DNA of 10,791 nt from Stephanodiscus triporus (taxonomy: Eukaryota > Bacillariophyta > Thalassiosirophyceae > Thalassiosirales > Thalassiosiraceae): positions 1 through 10,791 of the forward strand of contig JALLAZ010001009.1 in NCBI GenBank assembly GCA_036939755.1. The letters are read 5' to 3'. Within the stretch, counting starts at the first letter, position 1. Each line of letters starts with the position of its first letter. Made by a program: the position numbers and the translations under genes. The notes under the pieces were generated by a model, which did no database searches, was not told the origin of the DNA, and saw nothing but the letters and a program-made list of their open reading frames with translations. Shown piece after piece: positions 2,338 to 10,380 of the stretch.

Positions 2338-3179
2338 CGAACGGTAATAATGGCGAGGAGGAATTTCTATCGGGTGCGTAGCGGGTGCGAAGGAGACCGC
2401 CCCCCATTCGCGAAGGCCTATGGTGAAGAAGCTGATTGGATGACTTCTTCGCATGGAAGAGCAGTAGTCTTCATAGTAAATTTTACGCGATCAGCGGTAA
2501 TGAGTCATAACCTGTCAGCAACGCACTCACAATCTAAGAGGAAGGTATCATAGTACGTAGCTGAAAGAGAGTGGCTAGTTTACTCTCTATTGTAACAAAC
2601 TGCAAGTTCAACATGTAACTGTTAGAATTACTTTCCTTTATCAACAGTATCTTGTCCTCTGTAGCAGGCAAACAAATACTACCTAGTAATTATTACACTG
2701 TCTTGGCTTATTGTAGCAGTCTATCGGTCTTGTTCTCAGTTGGTCTCGAGAGTGTGTCAATCATCTTTGCTTTGTCCCTTCCTGAGTTTCAGTATTGCAT
2801 GTTAATTGTGCATCGTTCTTTTCTCATGACGTCTTCCATCGCATTGATTTTACACTTACCTATCGATCCCGGCATAACGTTTTTCTAATCAAGCATGCCC
2901 AGCACCAGATTTCATATCCGCGGGTATTATTATAGGAAGACTAGCTACGAGGAGCTTTTGTATTGGCTCGTATCAAATACACCAATCGTACAGATACTAA
3001 ATTCTCTGACCCAATCGAATTGTAGCGCCGTCGGTTCTCATGGCCGCATTTCGTTGAAGGTCGTGCAAAAGCATCCATCTGTGGACACGACCAATGCAAA
3101 CCTAACCCCAATGCGCCGCAAGAAGAGCTCCACTGATCGCATGAACATTTTTCTCTCATGACAGATTCCTTGCCGTCGA
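2338..3179. other. Convergent intergenic region
   Basis: Spacer between the stop of GGPPS (+) and the stop of the transporter (-), so it should hold both 3'UTRs and polyadenylation sites. Open frames on both strands are under 90 codons, several lack an ATG, and none shows a recognisable motif. A weak hairpin (GAAGAAG near 2424-2432 against CTTCTTC near 2443-2450) follows the synthase. I see no RNA gene or mobile element. Confidence 0.55.
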
Positions 3180-3688
3180 CTATTTTGTGGTTACCTTCCA
3201 AAACAGCTCACAAAGAGTCAGGACAGATGCTATGGAGGTTGCCACGACAGCCAACACAAGCGCCACAACATCGCACAGGCGCTCGCTTGACCAAGGTTTT
3301 CCCTTGCTAGATAGTTTCAAACGGAATAGAGGGGGGAGGACGAAGCCTGTAGTCGCCCCGCAAAAGCACCCAATGAAGCTCACGAGGTCCACGAAGCCGT
3401 TCGGGACGTATCCCGAAAAGGCCATGCAGGAAAGACAGATCGCGACCCTGACGACGACGCGTTCGGGATCGAGCATCGAACGACGTTGTTGTCGGCCGTC
3501 GTCTTCGTCGTCCGCTGCCATCCCGAGCTTTCCCTCGATCAGCTCGCCACACGGTACGACAACGAGGGGAGTCGTGAGCGCAACCACGAACGTCATCAGG
3601 AGACGGACCGACAGAGAAATCCAGGAGTCGGGCATCGCCTGCAGTACGTCCCCGTCGAACACGTGCGAGGGGGAGAATAGTACCCGTA
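3180..3688 (-). pseudogene. AAAP-family amino acid transporter, 3' part separated from the 5' part by an insertion
   Basis: This is the C-terminal part (about 167 native residues) of an amino acid/auxin permease (AAAP, Aa_trans) transporter. It starts with the lumenal-loop motif LFSPSHVFDGDVLQ. Four hydrophobic segments follow: SVRLLMTFVVALTTPLVVVP with the PCGELIEGK motif; VRVAICLSCMAFSGYVP; GFVDLVSFIGCFCGATTGF; and DVVALVLAVVATSIASVLTL. The frame stays open upstream to 3728, but those first 15 codons lie in the insert and have no transporter character. TAG at 3180-3182 ends the gene. With the 5' part at 7701-8724 it completes an 11-helix carrier, so it cannot be an independent gene. Family membership is strong; the substrate is unknown. 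Alone it has no promoter, and it would be translated only if the insert is spliced out. Confidence 0.85.
3680..3688. repeat. 9-bp direct repeat, left copy (putative target-site duplication)
   Basis: GTACCCGTA at 3680-3688 is identical to 7701-7709. The two copies lie exactly at the ends of the two transporter parts, in the same codon phase. On the minus strand both read ...A CGG GTA C... (Arg-Val). Keeping one copy and removing everything between gives NGIRVLFSPSH without frameshift. A 9-bp duplication is typical of Mutator-like elements; other superfamilies with 8-9 bp duplications are possible. Confidence 0.75.
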
Positions 3689-3690
3689 AG

Positions 3691-4017
3691 ATGATCACGA
3701 TTACTGGAAAAGTCCAACATCGATGCATCTAGCTCTCTTAAAGGTCCTAAACTAGAGCATGACAACACTTATAGATTTACTCTGGCACTTAAGTGTTCTT
3801 CTGCTATCCTTTTAGGTTGGTGACAGAAAACTAGGACGTTGACGACGAATCATGATAACGATTATAGATTTACTCTAGTTGCTGTAGAATTGCGGATTCC
3901 AGCGCCATTAAATGATATAAAGAAACACACCGTAGGCTTGATTGGTAGCTGACACCTTCCGGTGTATGCATGAATATCAGACCGGCCAATTCCAACATCG
4001 ATGCATCTAGCTCTCTT
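3691..4017. repeat. Scrambled direct-repeat copies of the ORF 3' end
   Basis: Three sequence pieces occur twice, all in the same orientation. A 27-bp piece at 3991-4017 (encoding KRARCIDVG in the large ORF) recurs perfectly at 3713-3739. TTATAGATTTACTCT at 3862-3876 (spanning the ORF stop) recurs at 3769-3783. ATGATAACGATTA at 3852-3864 recurs with one mismatch at 3691-3703. The copies are not in the same order as the originals, so this is not a simple tandem duplication. All copies lie between the ORF stop and the insertion boundary. Confidence 0.8.
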
Positions 4018-5931
4018 TAGGACATCTGCAGGGAAGATGTAAGCGTAACAAGTTTCGCTGAAACGACCCATGTCGTGACCATAGAACATAGTACGGTCCG
4101 TTGCATGTCGAAATTTCCATAGAGCATGAAGTATGTTAGTTGATATGAATACCTCTTCATAGATTTGTATCCTCTGAATCCGAGTAACAGGATCAACGAC
4201 ATGTGGGATCTCCGCCCCACCTCTGGTCTCGTCGTACTCGTGTAATTCTCTGACAACGTCGTCCGGCATGATGCATTTGTGTTCATTCAATTCGTTCAAA
4301 TATTCGCGGTCAGCATCGAGTAGGTCTACAGAAGTGGCTTTTGTTTTCAAGAAAATCTCTCGGTCGAAGGGAGTCAACATATCTGGAGGCACAGGAGAGA
4401 TATGAATTCCACTGAATCCATTCTCAATATTAGTTGCGAAGCTGGAGGATAGTCCCTCGGTGGAACACAATTTCTTTAAACATAAATCGGATGGGATATC
4501 AGGTTCATCGTCTTCTATTGACCACCTTTTCGACAGTGCTTCCATTTCAATATCTTTCAATCCAATCCGAAGAATCAAGTGCAGATGATATTCACAAGCT
4601 AGAATACTCCGACCAAGCTCATTTGCTATGGTAGAAAATTCCTGACGATCAATTGTATCAATCTCCCTCTCATTTTCAATGAACCAATTGTATAATTTGG
4701 ATTCATCCTCGCCACTCCATTGTTTATTATCTTTTCTAGTGTTATCTTTGACGGTATTTTTTTCATGAGGTACCTGATTGACGGGAGGTTGAAGATGTCT
4801 CATTATTTTGATTCTGATATCACGGTCATCCATCTGCTTCCACACTCCATCTGTTTCACGAAGGAATTTTCTCTTTTCATTGTGGAGTTGATTGGATATT
4901 TGTGCGACGATGTATCCTTTGAGAATACTAGAGTTTCTTCCAGTTAATGCAGAGTATTCGTCACGACTCTTCTCGGTTAGTTGAACTAGACGCTGATTAC
5001 CCTCGTTCGAACCATATGGATTGGTACAGTCTTTGGACCTCACGAGAATATCACGGGTCGAGAACTCATCCGAGGAGGGAGACGCTCTGGGCACTTCTCC
5101 CTCATCGACGCTCTCAACCAAGGAGGTAGACGCTCTGGGCACTTCTCCCGACCCACGATTCTTCTTATACCAATTCTTCCTACAGCTAAAGCACTGCCCT
5201 CCATGCAAATAGCGTGACATGGTCTCATTTGGATTGGAGTCATAAAGCAACACGGGTACACCAATCTTTGGGCAATCTTTCGTCGTGCATTGAGTTTGTC
5301 CCGCCCCGCGAGGAATGGTAATGTTAGCGGATTTAGTGGCGAGTTCATGATCGCTTTGCTTGGGAATGTATCCGTAATCGAGAATGATGAATCGTCCAAT
5401 GTTGAGGCGAACCATTATCCGTCCGTCATGGACATTCTCTACTCCTTGTTTGAGCACAAATGTATTTCCATTGCGTCCACCCAATTGATTCACAGCAACG
5501 GTGATCTCCTCAGGTTGAAGAGCAATTGATAAAGTTGCGGATGACGATCCCCGTTCGGAATCATTGTTGTCTTCATCAAGCGAGGGAGACGCGCATGGCA
5601 CTTCTCTCAGAGATGCGCAGAGCACTTCTCTAGCGATGCGACTAGCAATGCGACTCGAAGAGCGTTGAGGTAGTTTTGCCGAGGAATCAGTGGAATGCTT
5701 CCTGTGGGAGACTCCCTCGTGATGGCCTCCCTTCTTCCCGGCCGCTGCCGACCGTCGCTTCCTCTCGTCTCTGTTCAAGGGACATGTCATCATTCCGGCG
5801 AGACCTTTACTCGACAGGAGATCGGTATTGCGCTTTCGCTTGGCAGAAACAAATTCGTGGTAGGTCGGGTAGACCTGTCCGTTATAGGTGTATCCATCTT
5901 GCACATCGTCATCGTCATCATCGTCATTGGA

Positions 5932-5966
<35 letters not shown>

Positions 5967-7080
5967 TGTCATCGGCCTCGTTTTTGAATCCCTCGGCTGG
6001 CTCGTGAGTGAATCCCTCGGCTGGCTCGTGAGTGAATTCCTCGGTTGGCTCGTGAGTGAATCCCTCGGCTGGCTCGTTGGTGAATTCCTCGGTTGGCTCG
6101 TTGGTGAATTCCTCGGTTGGCTCGTTGGTGAATTCCTCGGCAGACGCTGTGGCGGTGGAACGACTGCAAAAAGGGAGGTGTGAGGACACGGATAGGGTAT
6201 TCCCATGTCCAAATACCTGTCCAATCTCGGCATCCTCACGCGCCCTCTTGCGAACGTCGCCGTTCTTGCGGTCGTCGACGACATCGTCCATCTCGTCCAG
6301 ATCCACCTCCCCGGATGCGCCAGCGAGCGATGGCGATGACGAGACCCTCCTGTTTTGCGGTAACAGCTGTGGGAACAAAGGCTGCGCGTATGATGGCAGC
6401 GCAAGTGGAACACTGACCCTCCTCTTTAACGCAATTCTCCTCCTAAGCCTACCAATGGATAAGGTAGCAATCCTTGGAACCGAAGGAATCGACGCCGGCG
6501 TAACCATGGCCCCTGGTGTGTTGATATCTCGACCTTGAACTCTCGCAGCGTAGGAATCGACGTCTGTGGCGGCTTGAAAAATGGGCAGCGCCTCCGGCGT
6601 AACCATGGCCCCTGGTGTGTTGATATCTCGACCTTGAACCCTCGCAGCGTAGGAATCGTAGGCGGCATTCGTAGTAGCCGAAGGAATTGACGTGCCCGAA
6701 GGAATCGGCGTGCCCAAATGAATCGTTGGAACCGAATGAATCGACGTGCTTGATGGAATCGCCGCGCCCGAATGAATCGCCGCGCCCGAATGAATCGACG
6801 TGCTTGAATGAATCGACGTGCCCGAAGCAATCGTCGCGGTGGACGCACCATCACAATGATTCCAGGGGGCGACCCAGCCTCGAAGGCTCCTCTCCCCGTC
6901 GGCCCTGCGCGGCGGGGGACTGCTCACCCTTGGAACTCTCCCCCTATCGGCGCTACGCGGCGGGGGATTGCTCACCGTCACACCGCGCATCAATGCGCTA
7001 AGGTATGAACCAGGCGGAGGTCCGTCGTCGTCGGAATCGTACATGGAGAGTCCGAGCAAGTCAAAGCGATTGCCACTCAT
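3862..7080 (-). CDS. 1072-aa probable nuclear protein with DUF6824-like and SANT/Myb-like regions
   Basis: One uninterrupted frame, ATG at 7080 directly after a splice-acceptor-like CGCAG|T. In order it shows: an acidic/Pro-rich start; nine degenerate hexapeptides of TSIHS/GAAIPS type (81-134); two near-identical DSYAARVQGRDINTPGAMV units 33 residues apart (142-195); basic clusters (RKNGDVRKRARED near 281, KRKR near 414) that could be nuclear signals; seven EEFTNEPT-type octapeptides (315-366); an Asp/Glu tract (370-393); Cys pairs C598-x4-C603 and C630-x2-C633 resembling a zinc ribbon; a region from RDILV (676) to RHLQ (764), with GNQRLV and KFLRETDGVW, that fits DUF6824; and a SANT/Myb-like stretch WSGEDESKLYNWF...FSTIANELGRS (788-838). 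A DNA- or chromatin-associated regulator is inferred; no enzyme or transposase motif is seen. The C-terminal half is more AT-rich than the flanking transporter. It lies wholly inside the insertion. Confidence 0.82.
5983..6138 (-). repeat. 24-bp tandem array (EEFTNEPT octapeptides)
   Basis: About 6.5 tandem 24-nt units encode residues 315-366 of the large ORF. They come in two versions, E-E-F-T-N-E-P-T and E-G-F-T-H-E-P-A, that alternate towards the 3' side, suggesting more than one round of unit duplication. The array runs directly into a GAC/GAG-type acidic tract (5904-5976). No stop codon occurs, so the frame has been kept. Confidence 0.88.
6495..6658 (-). repeat. 99-bp-period duplication (65 bp, 64/65 identical)
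   Basis: 6495-6559 and 6594-6658 match at 64 of 65 positions; the only difference is t/c at 6541 versus its counterpart. Both encode the same DSYAARVQGRDINTPGAMVTP unit in the large ORF, 33 codons apart. The near-perfect DNA match points to recent duplication or conversion inside the gene. Confidence 0.93.
6679..6840 (-). repeat. 18-bp tandem array (SIHS-type hexapeptides)
   Basis: Nine degenerate 18-nt units encode residues 81-134 of the large ORF, with the pattern x-x-x-I-[HP/A]-S (for example STSIHS, GAAIHS, GTSIPS). The units differ more from each other than the neighbouring 99-bp duplication does, so this array is older. It is probably a disordered Ser/Thr-rich linker. Confidence 0.85.
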
Positions 7081-7081
7081 A

Positions 7082-7315
7082 CTGCGAATAGGGAACAGGA
7101 GCGGAGAAGTAAAGGGTTAGGGGCCCTAACCGGCACAAAAGCCCCAGGCCAAGCAACCGTACCCCCTCCCCGACCCGCCTCCGACGACGCGACGAAGCGC
7201 CTCAGGAATATCGCAACGAGGCACCCCCCACGGCGCACCGACGCGAAAAATCGCCCGGCGAGCGTGCCGTCGCTCGACCTCGGGAGGGGTGGGGGTGCGG
7301 GGGGTTAGGACTTAC
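7082..7315 (-). other. 5'UTR intron of the 1072-aa ORF (234 nt)
   Basis: On the minus strand a consensus donor ATCACCAG|GTAAGTCC lies at 7315. A pyrimidine-rich acceptor (CTGTTCCCTATTCGCAG) ends at 7082, two bases before the ATG. A yeast-like branch sequence CTAAC lies at 7116-7120, about 35 nt before the acceptor. Donor, branch point, pyrimidine tract and AG are all in order, so the call is strong for a prediction by eye. It implies that the gene was transcribed and spliced where it evolved and that it moved as DNA. Confidence 0.75.
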
Positions 7316-7700
7316 CTGGTGATGTGGTGATGGGGATGGTGTTTTTTTTGTTCTGTGTGTGGCTGTAGGGCTGTCATTTGTCGGAGGCAGGATAATTCTG
7401 CTGCCAGACACTTTTTGGTGGCTTTCTTTTGATACTGGAAAGGGATGGCTCTAAGGGAGACCAGACCCCAAGTAGGGATTTTCCCCACAAAGAGAAAGGG
7501 TGCGCCAAAAAGTGTGAGGGGGACTCACGCTTTCTGGCTTGCCACTTTTTAACTAGGTACTCCTAGGTAAGGGTCCGAATTTTACCACTTACCACTAAAA
7601 AATCGGACTTTTTAACTAGGCGCTGGACACCGTCGAGTGCATCATCGACTCCACGAAACGGTGGGACAAGCAGATCCGAGGTGTGCTCGGCGTTCGGGAC
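7316..7700. promoter_or_regulatory. Upstream region of the nested gene: 5'UTR exon, promoter and insert end
   Basis: No protein-coding gene is supported on the gene strand. 7316-7400 reads as a CA-rich 5'UTR exon on the minus strand. Further up are an inverted repeat of 10 bp (CACTTTTTGG 7409-7418 with CCAAAAAGTG 7505-7514), a 13-bp direct repeat CTTTTTAACTAGG (7545-7557 and 7608-7620), and an imperfect hairpin (GTCCGAATTT at 7573 with AAATCGGAC ending at 7608). These could be promoter elements or sub-terminal repeats of the insert. The transcription start cannot be placed. Confidence 0.45.
7620..7700 (+). pseudogene. Exon-like fragment on the + strand at the insert's right end
   Basis: After an acceptor-like CTTTTTAACTAG, the + strand reads 27 codons with gene-like composition (ALDTVECIIDSTKRWDKQI, then RGVLGVRD). 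C/G dominates third positions, as in the GC-rich genes here. The reading runs to the insertion boundary, where transporter sequence begins on the other strand. It resembles a captured piece of another gene's exon rather than an ORF shadow. I do not recognise the protein, and a chance reading cannot be excluded. Confidence 0.35.
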
Positions 7701-7709
7701 GTACCCGTA
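7701..7709. repeat. 9-bp direct repeat, right copy (putative target-site duplication)
   Basis: Identical to GTACCCGTA at 3680-3688. On the minus strand this copy continues as GTACGT, a perfect splice-donor hexamer created at the junction (7704 down to 7699). That matters for whether the interrupted gene can still be spliced. Confidence 0.75.
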
Positions 7710-8724
7710 TCCCGTTCGACATCGCTACGTATCCAACGAAGACAAGGAGTAGGCCCGTGCGGACGGCGTGACCAACCCGCCGCGGGTTTTCCATGGAGTC
7801 CCGGAAATTGAAAACGAACGGCGCCACGCCGTAGCTGAAGACTGCCACTCCGAACCAACTGCTCGCGGCGGAGAGACTTGCCGGCCACAGACCTAACGCG
7901 CCGCCACTTGACGCGTACCAGAAGCCGCCGAATCCGTTCTCCGCGTAGCCCTGCCACGATATGATCGCGAACGACGCCGCCAACGCCATCAGGCCGACGC
8001 CGGAGAAATTTCCCAGCCATCCGACGCCCGGCGCGCACGACAGGACGATGACGATTGAATTCGGGATCATTAGGTCGAGTCCGCCGGAGCCCGTGGATAG
8101 CGGTGTGCCGTCGACGAAGGACATCATGGCGCTCTTGTAGGCTACCACGAGGCCGAAGAGCAGGGATAGCATGAGGGCATCCAGAACTGTCAAACCCACC
8201 AGACCGAGCGCGTACCAGGCCACCCTCCCGTATGCCGTCGTTCCGGGAGGGGGAGGAGGGGGCGGCGCCGGCGACGGAGGACGATGACGTGCGCCGCCGA
8301 CGCCACCGATTCCGACGAGGACCATGCCACCGTCGTCGTTGTCCTCCCCCCCGGATACGGGGATGAGATCGACGCACCCGAGCAGCAGGATCGACATGTA
8401 GTAATCCCACGCCCCTATCACGAACAGCCCGATGGCGTTGAATATCAGCCCTCCCCGTTCGGACGCGAAGGGCAGAGCGAGCGTCCCCGTGCCCATGCAG
8501 AACTTCGCGACGTTCGCGGACGTTCGAAGCGCGGACGCGCCCCCGCCCCCGTCGCTCGATGGCGGTCGTCGTCGTCGGAGGAGGGGCGTGCCCTCCTTGG
8601 CGGCAAGTGCGGAGGGCGGCGTCGTCGTCGCGTCGTTGAGGCCGCCACTATCGCCGTCCGCACACGATGGCGGCGGCGACGAAGACGACGCATCGTCGAT
8701 TTGGAGATGGACTTGGCGCATCAT
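7701..8724 (-). pseudogene. AAAP-family amino acid transporter, 5' part
   Basis: N-terminal 341 residues of an amino acid/auxin permease family proton-coupled transporter. A soluble leader of about 65 aa carries a TPLLRRRR stretch, compatible with a dileucine-type sorting signal. First-helix hallmark NVAKFCMGTGTLALPFA (71-87) follows. About seven hydrophobic segments are visible: 71-90, 92-120, 167-203, 222-238, 240-258, 283-303 and 321-336. A Gly/Pro-rich loop with a run of seven Pro lies at 123-163. The native frame then runs into the insert and stops at 7642 after 19 foreign codons, so the unspliced message would give a 360-aa protein lacking the last four helices. ATG 8724 (followed by a second ATG) starts the frame only 78 bp after the SET gene's stop. 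Vacuolar or plasma-membrane location and substrate cannot be told from sequence. Confidence 0.85.
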
Positions 8725-8802: not shown

Positions 8803-10380
8803 TCAAACTTGCTTTTTATTGTACGATAGATACACTTGGGCATTTACTGTGGGATACACCTGATGCTCATCATCCTCTGCTGCTGTGATTGTTCCATCTT
8901 TAACCCACCAGTTCTCGTTGTCCTTCCATACATCATCAGTCATATTATATCCATTACTACTCTGCTGCACAGCAGATGAAAGTGCATAGTGCAAAGCGTC
9001 ATAATATTGCCAGAGAGACGACCACTCACTGTGAGGGATGCCTGCGTCTTCACTAGCCGTATCCCTGTGCTTATTTGCAAACGACGTCAGTCGAGTGAGC
9101 TCCTCTTTTAACAATTCAATGCCTAAAACAGAAGGTGGAACGAGAAAGTTGACTACGGCTTCTCCTGTTGATTCATCAGCATCACTCCAATCCAAGTCAA
9201 ACTTCACTCTCGCGAAATCAAACAGCCATCTCTGAGGCAGCTCCTCAACAAAGCCAAAATGTAAAAATATTTCTGGTGTGCCAAACCAGTCAAGCCACTC
9301 CTGGCACAACACGCCACGATTGTAGCTTGTATAAAGTTGTTCTGATTGCTTGACTGCCTTGGTGGTGATGAGTTCGTATCCAGTCTGTTTGATTTGATCG
9401 CGATCATTAGATTCGTAGGGGTTATAGCGATGAGCCATGTTGCACTTTCCGTTATGGTGATTATTTATGTCATAGAACGGCACCATGTATTGATAGTCCG
9501 CACGAGCCTTGACGAGCATGGCTGCTTGACGATACATCGGATCATTTACTTGTCCATTGCAGAATAGCTTAATTTCGTTGTCAATGACATCATCAATCCC
9601 TCGGGCTTCATTTCACATGATACAGTAGGGGTTTGCAAGGTAAAAATAGTCCGACAAGAAGATTTGGTGTTGATCAAATAATATGCCAATACTTACGTGG
9701 CAGTTGATCAAGCTTTGTAAGATGATCAGATCTCTGACTTAGCAGCATTTCATGCAATAGATCTCTAGCAGCCTATGATAATTATCACGGATGCGAGATT
9801 TCATTTGTAGAGACCGTCATCATCATCATCGCATTAGATAAAATCGTTGAATGATTTGTTGAGCACGAGCTTACGTTCCATCACTCACCTGTGACCAAAA
9901 CGCTGCGGTATAATCCTTGGGCTGGGCGAGCAAGTATGCCCCATAGGGCGTTTTGCCACCATTGTTCATGGCATCAGCAACTGCTTTGATTGTGTCGCAG
10001 TCTGTTGAATTCCCTATTTCCAACTCCTCTTCACTTGGCTTCAAAATGAGATTCCACGGAATTCTGCAAACCGTTTCACCCACATCCATGTCATCCGTAG
10101 CAAAGATTCCGCGTGGAGATAAAGGATCATCGGGCACCGAATGTCTTACTGCAACCTTTTCATTGATGTAGGCGCCGTTTTTATGGAGCCAGCCAAGCAG
10201 CAGGGAAACAACGTCATCAGCAGAGCGTTCTTCGCTGCACTCCTGTGCCAGAGTTACCACAAGAGGCACAAGGATAATAGCTAAGAACCGCGACAATATG
10301 GATTTCATCGAGCGAGAGGAGGACATCATCAGGGTTTGGATTAATGCCAGGACCAACAACGGCGTTGTCAACCCTGTCAT
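8803..10380 (-). CDS. SET-domain (class VII, SETD3/Rubisco-LSMT-like) methyltransferase; complement(join(8803..9605,9697..9772,9889..10380))
   Basis: Predicted SAM-dependent protein lysine or histidine methyltransferase of 456 aa in three exons; the exon sum is 1371 nt, exactly in frame. Visible parts are SET start PRGIFATDDMDVGETVCRIPW (89-109), YGAYLLAQ (146-153), FWSQ-AARDLLHEML across the first junction, LPPRGIDD across the second, MVPFYDINNHH (230-240) with the SAM-pocket N238-H239, then ELITTKAVKQSEQLYTSYNRG (267-287), the usual GEQ-SYG strand with Ser for Gly. The C-terminal part (288-456) fits the helical substrate-binding region, though short. The N-terminus has a clean signal peptide if translation begins at Met25 (10308; MKSILSRFLAIILVPLVVTLA), so 10308 is a serious alternative start. 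No plastid ASAF/AF motif follows, so entry into the secretory pathway is inferred. Substrate unknown. Head-to-tail with the transporter. Confidence 0.87.
9606..9696 (-). other. Intron 2 of the SET gene (91 nt)
   Basis: Donor CTGCCAC|GTAAGT at 9696 and acceptor ATGAAG|CCCGAGG at 9606, phase 1, creating a Pro codon across the junction (QLP-P-RGIDD). Together with intron 1 this defines a 76-nt middle exon (9697-9772) of about 25 codons. Both introns are typically short for diatoms. Confidence 0.82.
9773..9888 (-). other. Intron 1 of the SET gene (116 nt)
   Basis: Donor TCACAG|GTGAGT at 9888 and acceptor ATTATCATAG|GCTGCT at 9773, phase 0. The join FWSQ-AARDLLHEM matches the tryptophan-containing helix seen in this family (W-S-x-x-G/A-R-x-L-L). 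Without splicing the frame stops six codons into the intron. Confidence 0.85.

Follow-up and report, generated by a model that had tools for sequence, protein, structure and literature searches.

A diatom amino acid transporter gene split by a 4-kb insert that carries another whole gene

In the diatom Stephanodiscus triporus, an amino acid transporter gene is split by a 4-kb insert that carries another whole gene. The insert lies between two exact copies of a 9-bp direct repeat, paralogous loci run continuously through the corresponding position, the edges of the insert consist partly of short pieces with matches dispersed in the assembly, and neither terminal inverted repeats nor a recurring block was found in our searches. 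We favour, with a probability of about one half, the interpretation that the block is filler DNA, copied into a double-strand break by repair synthesis that switched templates. In that case, what the 9-bp repeat marks may be a staggered break, or a site that a transposon once occupied, and not the ends of a transposon.

The window, i.e., the whole stretch of 10,791 nucleotides that was analysed, is contig C995 of an assembly of 21,651,415 bases in 1,324 contigs, and the features under discussion are listed in Table 1. Elsewhere in the window, positions 673–2337 hold a polyprenyl synthetase gene (PF00348) with at least two exons, the second frame of which has a glycine-rich stretch near residues 110–145. 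A frame at the contig end (2–319) and two minus-strand frames (8803–10380) have no Pfam match; we take the former to resemble the C-terminal part of a DDE transposase, and the latter presumably resemble a SET-domain methyltransferase.

Table 1. Features of the interrupted transporter gene and of the inserted block, in window coordinates
Feature	Position	Strand	Basis
5′ part of transporter gene, codons 1–341, including one 9-bp repeat copy	7701..8724	-	Aa_trans
9-bp direct repeat, copy adjoining 5′ part	7701..7709	-	GTACCCGTA search
9-bp direct repeat, copy adjoining 3′ part	3680..3688	-	GTACCCGTA search
3′ part of transporter gene, codons 342–507 and stop	3180..3679	-	Aa_trans
Inserted block, 4,012 bp	3689..7700	.	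Single copy in assembly searches
Inserted gene ORF, 1,072 aa: repeats, DUF6824, Myb-related C-terminal part	3862..7080	-	Pfam and frame comparison
Probable 5′UTR intron of inserted gene, CAG/GTAAGT ... TTCGCAG/TATG	7082..7315	-	Sequence only
Low-copy repeat, also on C706 and C1047	7544..7620	+	Sequence match
PPR (pentatricopeptide) exon piece, 56/60 identical to C522	7620..7679	+	Sequence match
13 bases equal to transporter 3398–3410, crossing right junction; possible templated piece	7691..7703	+	Exact match
40-bp piece, 93% identical to C43	3791..3830	+	Sequence match
Second copy of ORF end with stop codon, 23/26 against 3851–3876	3758..3783	-	Self-comparison
Second copy of ORF stretch 3988–4017, 29/30	3710..3739	-	Self-comparison
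27-bp piece, 24 positions matching C462, starts at left junction	3688..3714	+	Sequence match

The interrupted transporter gene

When the block and one repeat copy are taken out, the joined flanks give 1,524 nt, i.e., 507 codons and a stop codon, and the reading frame is restored, which bears out the exact 508-codon frame claimed in an earlier note on this sequence. The two halves hit successive parts of the Pfam Aa_trans profile (2–245 and 260–400 of 410). A Kyte-Doolittle scan of the transporter returned 10 hydrophobic segments at a threshold of 1.2 and 9 at 1.4 and 1.6, so that the 11 segments counted in the same note could not be reproduced. Its description of the 9-bp repeat, GTACCCGTA, proved accurate: both copies are exact and flank the block, and no third occurrence exists in the whole window on either strand. 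Of 2,000,000 breakpoint pairs drawn at random in this window, with draws of the true pair counted, 92 are spanned by a direct repeat of at least 9 bp.

The 5′ half of the transporter has eight matches in the assembly, one of which is the window itself, while two are on contig C1322 and five on C25. The C1322 and C25 loci, which are paralogues and not orthologues of the window gene, are continuous at the junction (SNGIRI-L(F/L)SPSY, compared with SNGIRV-LFSPSH in the window), and the pieces aligned across it are 57% (C1322) and 49% (C25) identical. In both, an intron apparently follows NFR (residue 308), 33 residues ahead of the junction. Because these loci run through the junction and their apparent introns lie elsewhere, the block can be regarded as an insertion in an exon, and a normal intron between the halves is ruled out for both paralogous loci. 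The earlier note had proposed an alignment to transporter orthologues; the comparison that was decisive here is the one with these paralogues. Taken together, the uninterrupted paralogous loci, the exact repeat and the restored frame make one insertion event within an exon, accompanied by a 9-bp duplication of target-site type, a well-supported reading of the sequence. The apparent intron after residue 308 is itself absent from the window transporter, which could have lost it or have originated as a retrocopy.

An assembly artefact could be suspected from the short contig, the fragmented assembly and the single-copy nature of the block. A misjoin would, however, not be expected to leave the 9-bp repeat exact and the frame restored, with both halves matching the same paralogues, and we consider this explanation barely credible. 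It is also conceivable, although quite improbable, that splicing removes the block and the gene remains functional, with a few residues added, a situation that would be compatible with any mode of insertion. Of the GT-AG pairings that were tested, three are in frame (7704 to 3729, 7700 to 3704, and 7728 to 3729), but there is no intron at the junction in the two paralogous loci, and the block carries a gene on the same strand. Unless such splicing takes place, full-length transporter is expected to be lost from the interrupted allele.

The inserted gene

The block contains a single, apparently intact gene, with its ORF on the strand of the transporter. The G+C content by codon position in this ORF (0.54, 0.46, and 0.51) fits coding sequence, though it is not strong evidence. 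DUF6824, a domain typical of diatoms, is present at residues 691–763, barely at the Pfam cut-off (27 bits), and the assembly as a whole has 29 DUF6824 matches, 28 of them over the cut-off and that of the window included. Besides DUF6824, Pfam returns one weak repeat match in the 1,072-aa ORF, and neither a Myb match nor a transposase or reverse transcriptase domain is found by Pfam in this ORF. Residues 814–1072 share 28–31% identity with frames on C93 and C538, the former of which has a Pfam Myb_DNA-binding match over the cut-off, and the C-terminal part of the inserted ORF thus appears to be related to the Myb protein on C93. No database protein related to the whole ORF was found at E ≤ 0.001 among the 7,985 candidates with most words in common, nor any relative of residues 560–1072 among 5,032 candidates at the same limit. 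A predicted structure of residues 780–1072 has no PDB match at E ≤ 0.001, a result that is uninformative at a mean pLDDT of 46.7 and with 4 sequences. Our literature search for DUF6824 returned no paper.

The probable intron is well formed, opening with GTAAGT at 7315 and closing with CAG at 7082, just ahead of the ATG at 7080, and 385 bp of the block are located further upstream. Since the probable intron is retained, and is preceded by these 385 bp, the source of the inserted gene is likely to have been DNA and not mRNA. The same probable intron does not fit a processed retrocopy made by a LINE, and neither does the lack of an A-run at the 3′ end (the 3689 side). The block does not resemble an LTR retrotransposon or a LINE either, as the 1,072-aa ORF has no RT domain and the ends do not form a long direct repeat.

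Parts of the inserted ORF also occur on other contigs. A 120-bp segment (5428–5547) is 94% identical to C1094:5446–5565, where it lies in an otherwise unrelated-looking 639-aa frame, in which part of the segment is tandemly repeated. A 24-bp coding minisatellite of the ORF (5977–6141) is also found on C311, C608, C713, C1247, C1308, and others, and in some places the copies on other contigs contain stop codons.

Copy number, termini and edges of the block

No second copy of the 4,012-bp block was found in the 21.65-Mb assembly in searches with the whole block and both edges, which returned short patches only; the assembly searches scored the best candidates and skipped very common words, and therefore do not prove rarity. 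Except for one partial match to the left end with 3 mismatches, the block termini do not recur in the assembly at up to 3 mismatches. There are no terminal inverted repeats in 3601–7800, where the best match between left and right ends comprises 8 bases and is situated off the ends. On the block, edge and terminus searches, a transposon with further copies was rejected, and the additional copies with different 9-bp flanks for which the earlier note had suggested a search did not appear in the assembly. From its proposal of a single insertion with target-site duplication, the insertion and the exact 9-bp repeat can be retained, whereas the recurrence, termini and inverted repeats of a transposon were not found.

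The block could nevertheless be a low-copy, non-autonomous Mutator-type transposon without terminal inverted repeats, which would have been moved by a MULE transposase in trans and would contain captured gene pieces. Non-TIR forms of Mutator-like elements, gene capture, and duplications of 8–11 bp are all described in PMC6446971; the exact 9-bp repeat falls within this range, gene pieces are present inside the block, and the non-TIR forms would lack inverted repeats anyway. In addition, there are 11 matches to MULE transposase in the assembly, 9 of which are over the cut-off. Unlike Mutator-like elements, the block has no transposase in its ORF, no inverted repeats, and no second copy that could be found, and each terminus was found once, the partial match to the left end aside. 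Of the two MULE loci examined, that on C1180 does have its frame enclosed by a 56-bp inverted-repeat pair (87.5%), with no 9-bp duplication established, and that on C695 has no inverted repeats, in a stretch that ends at the contig end. The block ends, when compared with 12 MULE loci, gave nothing better than 11 bases (E 0.70), and diatom MULEs are tabled in PMC6446971 as ‘No TSD and not indicated’. A Mutator-type origin is therefore possible, but we regard it as doubtful.

At the left edge, the order of the pieces from the ORF outward is the C43-like piece, the copy of the ORF end, the copy of 3988–4017, and finally the C462-like piece. The counterpart of the first of these on C43 is located inside a 190-aa open frame. 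For the C462 match, a 24-base pattern with up to 3 mismatches, 0.009 occurrences are expected by chance. An empirical control with targets that included the transporter paralogues gave 3 hits from 200 positions (3600–7800 skipped); the same control without the paralogues gave none for 300 24-mers against 196,133 positions on both strands, a set smaller than the genome that provides a loose bound. Backwards controls of the terminus searches returned 0 matches for the left end and 1 for the right end, and because of the latter, single short matches such as that to C462 need to be treated with caution.

At the right edge, the low-copy repeat has a 25-base core of which, besides the window, C706 has two copies and C1047 one; C706 also carries a DDE_1 transposase frame. 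The PPR piece directly adjoins this repeat, and its C522 counterpart is found inside a 1,236-aa frame of a PPR gene. It is followed by 11 bases to which no source has been assigned, and then by the 13 bases shared with the transporter. In a chance test of this own-flank match, devised post hoc and applied to 12 loci, 69 of 60,000 random positions were as good.

Edges composed of pieces that are found elsewhere are what a filled break would leave, but two control stretches show dispersed matches as well. The 840-bp stretch 2340–3179 has 8 matches elsewhere, all within query positions 148–258, i.e., a dispersed short repeat at window positions 2487–2597 with 79–90% identity. A 1,872-bp control beside the C25 paralogue, which is not purely intergenic, has at least 54 matches besides itself among the best 40 of 141 candidates, and in the same set 53 of them fall within 1619–1769 and one at 1321–1549. 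As far as two controls can tell, which is few, dispersed short matches occur in ordinary DNA of this genome, mostly as one repeat per stretch, and neither of the two shows different pieces strung together as at the block edges.

The patchwork may also predate the insertion, if a break captured a ready-made chromosomal fragment whole, with the patches already in it, or if such a fragment entered as extrachromosomal DNA. This would agree with the 120-bp match to C1094, which implies that mosaics exist also away from the edges, and with the 4 mismatches in 60 bases between the PPR piece and its apparent source. Against this, the C462-like piece starts exactly at the left junction and the own-flank piece crosses the right junction, as would joints made at the time of insertion, and we find a ready-made fragment unlikely.

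Proposed origin and implications

In the mechanism that we favour, a double-strand break would have opened the transporter gene within an exon, and repair synthesis would have switched templates several times and thereby copied in the 4-kb filler. The filler would comprise the nearly complete gene of a nuclear protein, flanked on both sides by short scraps that come from other genes, from the 3′ end of the inserted gene itself and perhaps from the local flank. Two sources of the 9-bp repeat are conceivable: a staggered break whose overhang was filled in, or a transposon that had duplicated its target site there and left the break on excision. That there was a break, that templates were switched, in which direction copying ran and where the repeat came from are our inferences; the pattern is consistent with the uninterrupted paralogues, with the succession of four pieces at the left edge and of low-copy repeat, PPR piece and junction-crossing transporter bases at the right, with termini that otherwise do not recur and have no inverted repeats, and with the probable intron and upstream DNA, which favour a DNA source.

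The main weakness of template-switched filling is that no donor of the block core was found in the assembly, although copying predicts one if the assembly is complete. The 32 contigs listed are all at least 10,164 bases long, and short contigs, among which a donor could reside, may be missing. Furthermore, the patches may already have been neighbours of the gene prior to its movement, ordinary DNA here also has short dispersed matches, and the matches to C462 and to the own flank, both short, were noticed post hoc, with one match in the backwards control of the right end.

Related cases are described in other organisms. PMC3445842 states that genes move through filler DNA in plants and, citing Wicker et al. 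2010, relates gene movement in grasses to filler at repaired breaks. As in the grass cases of that source, where the inserted fragment is interpreted as filler from synthesis-dependent strand annealing and is tied to target-site duplications, a gene is found at a non-ancestral place; the diatom case differs in being inside an exon, in having several traceable patches at both edges, and in that no donor locus was found. At excision sites of rice DNA transposons (PMC4423477), where Mutator target sites are 9 bp long, filler of 1–123 bp was present in 58 of 94 excisions and both duplications were exact in 8 of 94. The diatom insert shares with these a repeat of Mutator length, the retention of both repeat copies and, on the proposed reading, foreign filler, but 4,012 bp with a gene between two exact copies is extreme by comparison, and no excised element can be named. 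Human double-strand breaks capture adjacent and ectopic sequence, which the authors of PMC5087911 attribute to microhomology-mediated template switching, and copies of nearby and ectopic sequence at junctions are common to both situations; those breaks were, however, induced in cultured cells and mostly accompanied by deletions, whereas no deletion is seen at the insertion in the window. Small tandem duplications result when 3′ overhangs are filled in in mouse embryonic stem cells (PMC8355091). Among the titles from our literature searches on filler DNA and Pack-MULEs, we met no such insertion in a diatom, though the print record may hold one.

With respect to age, the earlier note had called the insertion young. 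The halves contain no stop codon or frameshift across 507 codons, which agrees with this only weakly: 0.81 stop codons would be expected in 507 codons at 2% neutral divergence and 2.03 at 5%, and the intact frame alone is thus compatible with a few percent of neutral divergence and sets a weak limit on age. A very recent copying event is disfavoured by the four mismatches in the PPR piece, unless a different allele or paralogue was the true donor.

More generally, the case cautions against taking a transposon as proven just because an insert lies between perfect 9-bp direct repeats. Gene movement through the repair of breaks has been argued from grass genomes, and if the proposed origin is true, an exon case in a diatom, with continuous paralogues and traceable patches, would place the same process far from plants. 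It would also provide a hint as to how mosaic genes arise in this diatom. We tentatively suggest, as an idea that is not yet probable, that patchwork repair of breaks, through repeated template switching, can carry whole genes into other genes here, joins them in with scraps of several unrelated genes and is a standing source of mosaic genes, in which case the inserted ORF, with its C1094-like stretch, would itself be an example.
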